From Acidobacteriales bacterium 59-55 (GTDB lineage Bacteria; Acidobacteriota; Terriglobia; Terriglobales; Acidobacteriaceae), in contig MKSV01000007.1 of NCBI GenBank assembly GCA_001897435.1, forward strand, positions 620,001 through 684,000: a stretch of DNA of 64,000 bases, read 5' to 3'. The position numbers and the translations under genes were made by a program. The notes below the pieces were generated by a model. It was not told the origin of the DNA, did not search any database, and worked only from the letters and a program-made list of their open reading frames with translations. Every line of letters begins with the position of its first letter. The stretch's first letter is position 1. This document shows, piece after piece, positions 32,301-35,067 of this stretch.

Positions 32301-32439
32301 ACAACCAGTTTAGTGCGATTCGGAAAGTGGCGCGGCGAAAGGACTGGTCAGAGGGGGCCAAGTTTGAGAGACTGACGAGCAGCTTGTTTTGAATCAGCCG
32401 GTTGAAGTGAATCGAAGGGCAGCGTACGAGGAGAATGCG

Positions 32440-33267
32440 ATGAGCGAAGAAGGATACGTGGAACAACGATCAATGTCGGGAGCATTTATTGCTGTCGTCG
32501 CGGTGGCATTACTGGCCGCGCTTGGTTCGCTGGTGTGGTGCTACGGCCTGCAGAACCATCTCAAGGTCGCGGAGCAGAAGTTGGCAACAGCCGACAAGAA
32601 AAACGCTGACCTTGCGGAGGAGCTGGATGCGACGAACGCCCGGCTGCGGGCGACCAGCGAGACGCTGGGGCAGAGCGTCGGCATCGCGCAGAAGCAGATC
32701 GAGACGCGGGCACAGAGCATCCTCGCGGCGCAGGCGGCGGCGACGACGAGACTGGAGCAGGAGCAGGCGGCAAACAAGAAGCAGATCGGCGCGGTATCGA
32801 ACGATGTAGCCAGCGTGAAGACGGATGTCGGCGGCGTAAAGACGGACGTGGCGACGACCCGATCCGACCTGGAGGCGACCAAGTCGCAGCTAAACCGGGT
32901 GGTGGGCGATGCCGGCGTGATGAGCGGCCTGATCGCGACCAATCACAGCGAACTCGAAATTCTCAAGCACAAGGGTGATCGCAACTACTTCGAGTTCACC
33001 TTGAAGAAGGGCGAGAAGCCGTTGCTGTTGTCGACGATCAAGATTCAATTGAAGAAGGTGAACCAGAAGCACTCGCGGTATACGCTGAACGTGAGCGCGG
33101 ACGACCGCAACATCGAGAAGAAGGACAAGAATCTCGACGAGCCGGTGCAGTTCTATACAGGCAAGACGCCGGTGCTGTACGAACTGGTGGTCAACGACAT
33201 TCAGAAGAACAGCGTGTCCGGTTATCTCTCGACGCCGAAGGGGCCGGGGCAGCCTGCCGGGCAATAG
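32440..33267 (+). CDS. Single-pass membrane protein with coiled coil and C-terminal beta domain
   Basis: Protein of 275 residues. ATG 32440 follows GAGGAG. A short cytoplasmic tail and one membrane helix (AFIAVVAVALLAALGSLVWCY, about 15-35) are followed by a long coiled coil (about 40-170). Its later part shows clear seven-residue units, such as VKTDVGG, VKTDVAT, TRSDLEA and TKSQLNR. The last 100 residues are predicted beta-rich (YFEFTLKKGEKPLLL, TIKIQLKKVN). No catalytic motif is seen and I do not recognise a named family. It may be an envelope tether or surface protein. Confidence 0.75.
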   Translation: MSEEGYVEQRSMSGAFIAVVAVALLAALGSLVWCYGLQNHLKVAEQKLATADKKNADLAEELDATNARLRATSETLGQSVGIAQKQIETRAQSILAAQAAATTRLEQEQAANKKQIGAVSNDVASVKTDVGGVKTDVATTRSDLEATKSQLNRVVGDAGVMSGLIATNHSELEILKHKGDRNYFEFTLKKGEKPLLLSTIKIQLKKVNQKHSRYTLNVSADDRNIEKKDKNLDEPVQFYTGKTPVLYELVVNDIQKNSVSGYLSTPKGPGQPAGQ

Positions 33268-33286: not shown

Positions 33287-33325
33287 AACGGGGGACGCTT
33301 CATAAGCGTCCCCCGTTTCTATTTG
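33287..33325. terminator. Strong bidirectional intrinsic terminator
   Basis: A perfect 13-bp stem (AACGGGGGACGCT at 33287-33299 with its complement at 33305-33317) has a five-base loop and is followed on the plus strand by TCTATTTG. It lies 19 bp after the coiled-coil gene and 11 bp from the end of the small peptide gene on the other strand, so it probably serves both. Confidence 0.85.
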
Positions 33326-33336
33326 CCTGTTGATTT

Positions 33337-33405
33337 CTACTTCTTTTTTGCGGCTTTCTTCGCCGGCTTCTTTGCTGCTTTTGTGGCTGCCTTTTTCGTT
33401 GCCAT
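33337..33405 (-). CDS. 22-residue Lys/Ala-rich peptide, histone H1-tail-like
   Basis: A tiny gene encoding MATKKAATKAAKKPAKKAAK plus two final Lys. Half of its residues are lysine; with alanine, one proline and threonines it looks like a single block of an H1-type tail. It is supported as a real gene by a GGGAG ribosome binding site nine bases before the ATG, a near-consensus promoter 17-spaced about 60 bp upstream (TTGACA and TATACC) and a terminator 11 bp beyond the stop. Such peptides may bind DNA or acidic polymers without sequence specificity. This function is inference. Similar short K/A-rich open frames occur in Acidobacteria, to my memory, but I cannot check it here. Confidence 0.75.
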   Translation of the reverse strand: MATKKAATKAAKKPAKKAAKKK

Positions 33406-33446
33406 TTGTCTATTCTCCCTATTGATTAGACATCGCTGCTGCAACA

Positions 33447-33461
33447 AGCTGCATTGCAGCT
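33447..33461 (-). promoter_or_regulatory. Palindrome at the transcription start of the small peptide gene
   Basis: AGCTGCATTGCAGCT is a perfect inverted repeat around a single central base. It starts about seven bases after the -10 box of the minus-strand promoter, which places it at the expected transcript start. It could be an operator or the first hairpin of the RNA. Confidence 0.45.
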
Positions 33462-33467
33462 AACGAA

Positions 33468-33496
33468 GGTATAGATTCACTGAAATTTACTGTCAA
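33468..33496 (-). promoter_or_regulatory. Sigma-70-type promoter for the 22-residue peptide gene
   Basis: On the minus strand TTGACA (33496-33491) is separated by exactly 17 bases from TATACC (33473-33468). The -35 box is a perfect match to consensus and the -10 box matches in four of six places. Transcription would begin near 33461, giving a leader of about 56 bases. Confidence 0.75.

Positions 33497-33609: not shown

Positions 33610-35067
<1,458 letters not shown>

Follow-up and report, generated by a model that had tools for sequence, protein, structure and literature searches.

The window, a stretch of 64,000 nucleotides from an Acidobacteriales genome, carries on its minus strand a small gene that falls below the length limit of gene callers: it is predicted to make a small RNA encoding a Lys-rich peptide of about 22 residues. 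Reading of the sequence located every element that a preliminary description of this DNA had reported, namely a TTGACA-17-TATACC promoter, a palindrome at the start, GGGAG, and a 22-codon frame, all on the minus strand. The reported strong terminator is likewise present as a strong stem, although it spans 14 rather than 13 bp and lies beyond the interval (33337-33496) that the earlier text covered. The features are as follows, in window coordinates.

33468-33496, minus strand: sigma-70-type promoter with TTGACA (33496-33491), a 17-base spacer, and TATACC (33473-33468); read from the sequence; in an alignment of 79 relatives, no column of TTGAC or TATA varies.
33438-33460, minus strand: 5' hairpin or palindrome GCTGCAA..TTGCAGC just behind the inferred transcription start; covariation in 79 relatives and RNAalifold.
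33407-33432, minus strand: TGTCTA..TAGACA arms, which place GGGAG in a loop in the window's genus; read from the sequence by eye.
33415-33419, minus strand: GGGAG, Shine-Dalgarno-like, within the invariant stretch AGGGAGAA; invariant in 79 relatives.
33337-33405, minus strand: 22-codon frame MATKKAATKAAKKPAKKAAKKK (P0001), from the ATG at 33405 to the TAG at 33337; ATG and a GCA second codon in 103/103 loci, with 691 synonymous against 107 nonsynonymous changes.
33323-33328, minus strand: AGGCAA motif in the 3' untranslated region; present in 83/103 relatives.
33287-33317, minus strand: terminator stem of 14 bp with the loop ATG, common to the convergent gene at 32389-33267 (plus strand); read from the sequence, with a stable hairpin in 103/103 relatives.

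Judging by the positions of promoter and terminator, the transcript would be about 175 bases long. The predicted transcript is more stable than its shuffles (z = -6.63; 0/200 shuffles equal), with the terminator as the main contributor to its fold stability. Few T residues follow the terminator stem (33317-33287) in the minus-strand direction. A consensus scan of the window listed neither the promoter, whose TATACC lacks a T at position 6, nor the terminator; despite that absence, the comparative data support both as predicted signals. Upstream on the same strand lies 33610-35067 (minus), which we take from a reading of its protein, without a search, to be an L-serine ammonia-lyase-like gene. 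The downstream neighbor, 32389-33267 (plus), is convergent and has its terminator in common with the small gene.

The gene is widespread among relatives of its host. DNA covering promoter and frame gave matches in 339/398 genomes of the family (E <= 0.01), some of them falling within other genes. Parsing of 110 loci yielded 103 copies of the small gene, one copy truncated at a contig end, and six hits elsewhere, mostly to longer K/A-rich frames. A covariance model, R1, was built from 79 leaders and comprises the promoter, the leader, and the first five codons. It found a single copy in the gene's own genome and matched 350/397 genomes and 73/80 genera of the order (E <= 0.1), nearly always with a single match in each genome; across the phylum, 44/396 genomes matched (E <= 0.01), and all 44 belong to the window's family. 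At E <= 0.1, R1 had no match in 47/397 genomes of the order, one of which was later found with R2, a sequence-only model run on 80 chosen genomes. The nine matches of R2 (E <= 0.1) comprised four from the sister and f2 families, which had been detected before, one in G219, a family member missed by R1, and four that were partial and weak. Nine genomes of genus g44 retried with R1, eight of them also with R2, stayed negative. Scanning named genome contigs with a pattern recovered at least 117 stretches; all 80 of the matches listed are titled Acidobacteria or members thereof, including Edaphobacter lichenicola, Granulicella, Terracidiphilus, and Occallatibacter.

Judged from these sequence comparisons, the occurrence of the gene is not due to chance. 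The preliminary description had proposed a stand-alone Lys/Ala-rich peptide gene with its own promoter and terminator in Acidobacteria, a view that a lack of conserved start, frame, and promoter in relatives would have weakened; each of these elements, the terminator included, proved to be conserved. The neighborhood varies. Among the 103 loci, the convergent gene occurs beside 42, the ammonia-lyase gene beside 25, and none of the six tested proteins beside 40, as counted within mostly 1.2-1.5 kb fetched per side. Carriage by phages or plasmids was considered and rejected, with no match (E <= 0.001) in phage or plasmid collections. A few genomes hold two copies on different contigs (L046/L104 and L051/L102, in G167 and G085); these are draft assemblies, in which mixed strains are possible.

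The ATG start and GCA second codon recur in all 103 loci read, the peptides range from 18 to 37 residues, and taken together they contain 48% Lys, 35% Ala, 7% Thr, and 4% Pro. Base differences fall overwhelmingly on third codon positions (734, against 78 at first and 38 at second positions), and codon changes number 691 synonymous versus 107 nonsynonymous; these counts come from 162 overlapping pairs of 96 distinct frames, each pair having the same length and differing at <=8 bases, and involve no formal test. With start and frame conserved and most codon changes silent, the comparisons indicate that the frame encodes a selected peptide. The synonymous excess rules out a chance frame. The earlier alternative, in which the open frame is incidental to an RNA, is wrong in that form, given the clear selection on the frame in 103 loci.

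Peptides of other genera in the family have 13-32 residues (e.g., MATKKKKAKKKKH, MAAKKKAKKKAKKKK, and MATKKGGSKKGGSKKGSKKH) and retain the charge while the spacer residue is swapped. Since Gly/Ser or Lys replaces Ala in some genera, it seems to be the Lys charge that matters most. In two loci of genus g61 (L326 and L347), Gly/Ser stands instead of Ala (MATKKGGSKKGGSKKGSKKH) with the Lys pairs retained; in L347, an insertion separates the first hairpin from GGGAG. Beyond the family, a sister family encodes MATKKPAKKAAKKPAAKKTSKKK with a CTTGACA..TATACA promoter and a GC-rich hairpin. A family related only at the level of class, in another order, has MKYATKKKAAAKKKAAPKKKK or MKNATKKKAVAKKKAPAKKKAAAKKKK together with CTTGAC..TTATAAA, a GCGC hairpin, and TTAAGGGAGAAT; its R1 score is weak (E about 0.7), and its assignment is based on architecture. 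Searches of Pfam with three peptides returned no family. NCBIfam returned none for two peptides; a relative of 37 residues drew three families with E values of 0.4-0.7, all well short of their cut-offs. Membership in the histone-H1-like, Hc1, or AlgP families was set aside, as no curated profile matched.

Signals in the RNA are conserved alongside the frame. In the first hairpin, 96% of cells across the 79 relatives are paired, and 5/7 pairs are changed on both sides. Both helices together contain 52 cells with both sides changed, a value that 0/500 shuffles reached, and sliding the partners abolishes the covariation signal. RNAalifold, unaided, recovered the same first hairpin with six pairs, five of them with double changes. 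The second hairpin, as seen in other genera, is less certain than the first (77% of cells paired); by eye, most other genera have TCGATG..CATCGA where the window's genus has TGTCTA..TAGACA. The 5' palindrome could in principle be a DNA operator, but its stem bases covary, which fits an RNA better. Leaders of the coding loci were more stable than dinucleotide shuffles in 95/103 cases (mean z -3.1).

At the other end of the transcript, a stable hairpin lies <=90 bases from the stop in 103/103 loci. A control on 26/103 loci gave a median of -32.6 kcal/mol versus -14.3 kcal/mol for shuffled sequence, with 0/130 shuffles reaching the weakest real hairpin. AGGCAA in the 3' untranslated region is found in 83/103 relatives, against 2.2 expected from mononucleotide shuffles; in some of them it pairs in part with the terminator base. 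Rfam had no family at gathering score in the window or in the loci of eight relatives; matches up to E = 5 were weak, and Acido-1 was not among them.

Loss of the frame in some lineages offers a separate view of the RNA. We picked 60 genomes, mainly for weak scores or from weakly scoring genera, and 59 matched. Five of these weak-score loci encode the peptide, and 54 are without the start codon and K-rich frame: 26 in genus g64, 17 in g32, four in g44, six in the window's own genus (g1), and one in g43. An ATG stands at the expected start in 0/54, with ACG there in several, and the spacing between GGGAG and the terminator differs by single bases. All 54 keep the promoter and GGGAG, as the search method itself required; because R1 favors a conserved leader and first codons, this retention is partly selected by the search. 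A terminator stem of >=7 bp is present in 50/54, and 52/54 leaders are more stable than dinucleotide shuffles (mean z -2.4). The stem formed from the TGC arm gains only modestly in length over controls in which the remaining sequence is shuffled (mean 5.9 vs 4.8 bp). Across the 26 genomes of g64, hardly any change occurs between GGGAG and the GGCAA motifs. Outside the modeled part of the ORF-less loci, GGCAA occurs 68 times versus 23.1 in dinucleotide shuffles, a count that supersedes an earlier one (142 vs 11.9) made with mononucleotide shuffles and with the modeled part included; in g44 the motif is not enriched (1 vs 1.8). Bases of GGCAA are unpaired in predicted folds at 0.61, versus 0.40 for the average base.

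Flanking genes tie several of these loci to the coding gene. In the flanks fetched, the ammonia-lyase gene stands beside 17/17 ORF-less loci of g32, 6/26 of g64, and 2/4 of g44, and the convergent gene beside 5/6 in g1. By these neighbors, the ORF-less locus is indicated to be the same as the coding gene's in g32 and g1, the two genera that this identification covers; in g64 the neighbor was found in 6/26 only. Well-supported branches of the ammonia-lyase tree force at least two changes of state, and the convergent-gene tree needs two, with a single change still possible. Changes of state are read as frame losses because the outgroups carry the peptide. In seven of the g32 loci (L264, L267, L372, L374, L378, L380, and L382), a later ATG opens a basic MRSGGKGRNATRQS-like frame, which runs into the terminator. 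The frame covers a GCGGTGGCAAAGGCCGC stretch, which is likewise present in g32 loci lacking that ATG. A replacement peptide may thus exist in 7/17 g32 loci. A start-site pattern found no moved peptide in nine ORF-less genomes, a weak result, as the same pattern also missed coding genomes such as G008 and G310.

Comparison thus establishes a sigma-70-type promoter, a 5' hairpin, AGGGAGAATAG, a Lys-rich peptide of 13-37 residues at most loci read, and a GC-rich terminator. These would make up a usually single-copy gene that yields a small transcript and has persisted across much of a single order of Acidobacteriota. The conservation data indicate that two layers, the frame and the RNA, are under selection. 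Because the RNA is kept after frame loss, it appears to have a function of its own, and its job is probably independent of the peptide; as the RNA outlives the frame in several genera, RNA and peptide probably both matter. We therefore favor, with moderate confidence and by analogy, a dual-function small RNA of the SgrS/SgrT kind, in which the RNA would act by itself and also encode a free polycation. The peptide would be made in quantity and stay inside the cell, resembling a detached histone-H1 or HU tail, and its composition suggests that it could neutralize DNA, RNA, or polyphosphate. The RNA would work by base-pairing or by binding a protein, probably using the single-stranded central region that holds GGGAG and GGCAA.

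That the peptide is the only product that counts is possible, although we doubt it. The leader, hairpin, and terminator would then serve strong and stable expression, and ORF-less copies would be relics or carry a switched peptide. The clear coding signal agrees with this, the 5' hairpin and strong GGGAG suit a stable, well-translated mRNA, and a different basic frame is present in 7/17 g32 loci. However, structured leaders (52/54), GGGAG, and terminators persist in the ORF-less copies of five genera, and g64 is nearly unchanged from GGGAG to the GGCAA motifs in 26 genomes. We regard as unlikely a self-contained riboregulator whose repeated, single-stranded GGCAA motifs would pair with UUGCC sites or titrate an RNA-binding protein, with its own peptide as a helper. 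Here, the polycationic peptide would coat or anneal RNA, and peptide-less lineages would use another helper; if true, the RNA chaperone would be encoded by the dual-function RNA itself.

As a special case of the peptide-only reading, a small basic ribosome-associated or RNA-chaperone peptide, comparable to the tiny basic ribosomal proteins, would match the size, charge, usual single copy, and strong expression signals. It is more doubtful still, since the sequence is nearly all Lys with an exchangeable small spacer and lacks any arrangement of residues that could define a site, and the frame is dispensable in several genera. Half of the codons specify Lys and a terminator follows directly, as would suit the leader peptide of a transcription attenuator in which the position of the ribosome on Lys codons sets terminator folding; this is highly improbable, as no same-strand gene lies behind the terminator in the window, where the next gene is convergent, as it also is in 42/103 relatives. 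That the RNA is purely noncoding and its open frame fortuitous, a view for which the persistence of the RNA without the frame could be cited, is the least credible reading of all in view of the synonymous excess, the ATG and GCA fixed in 103/103 coding loci, and the presence of the frame in the sister family and another order.

Known systems provide partial parallels to the favored dual-function RNA. In enteric bacteria, SgrS/SgrT likewise combines a small RNA, its own promoter and terminator, and a small protein, and some species lack a functional SgrT frame, having lost it or its start codon, while the RNA stays (PMC4021124; also PMC8672173). Unlike SgrT, a protein of about 40 residues whose target is a transporter, the product here is a short polycation, with no sequence relation known. 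In VcdRP of Vibrio cholerae, a single transcript encodes a small protein of 29 residues and contains a conserved stretch for base-pairing; there the frame is conserved in all species that the authors tested (PMC8672173), whereas here the frame is lost in several genera. The peptide resembles the histone-H1-like Lys/Ala/Pro repeat tails of AlgP and PhaF in Pseudomonas. KPAA-repeat peptides bind DNA, and the AlgP tail is required for the spacing of polyphosphate granules (PMC9239181). Those tails span about 150 residues on larger proteins, whereas the present peptide is free, has 22 residues, and has no other domain. Acido-1 (RF01686), a noncoding RNA candidate of Acidobacteria (PMC2864571), differs in that Rfam returned no match between it and the small gene. 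Judged by titles and the starts of abstracts, the gene is unreported in the one open paper library searched.

The gene is too short for annotation yet occurs in most of the genomes examined from a common soil family, so the gene content of these bacteria is being under-read. Lineages that have naturally lost the frame but kept the RNA supply a ready comparison for separating RNA from peptide function. If real, a selected, free H1-like tail of 13-37 residues would, in our judgment, be a very small nucleic-acid-binding protein.

Longer proteins with similar Lys/Ala-rich stretches also occur. The gene's own genome has three HU genes, of which two were read and neither has a long K/A tail; the peptide might act as an HU tail in trans. 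The sole other match to the KKAAKKxA codon pattern in that genome (L275; contig C3, 189756-189778) is a long frame with an acidic first part and a long, histone-H1-like Lys/Ala/Pro repeat tail. Three loci of g1 (L280, L286, and L290) encode proteins of 87-128 residues with the same MATKKAA-like head, which in L290 leads by eye into an HU-like domain. Elsewhere in the phylum, in family f83, L304 and L305 (G689 and G682) encode MATKKAAKKPAKKAAKKAAKKKK and a near copy. This peptide lies directly behind a gene whose product ends in CGSTSGCS, presumably as in B12-type ribonucleotide reductases, and is without a promoter of the small-gene type.
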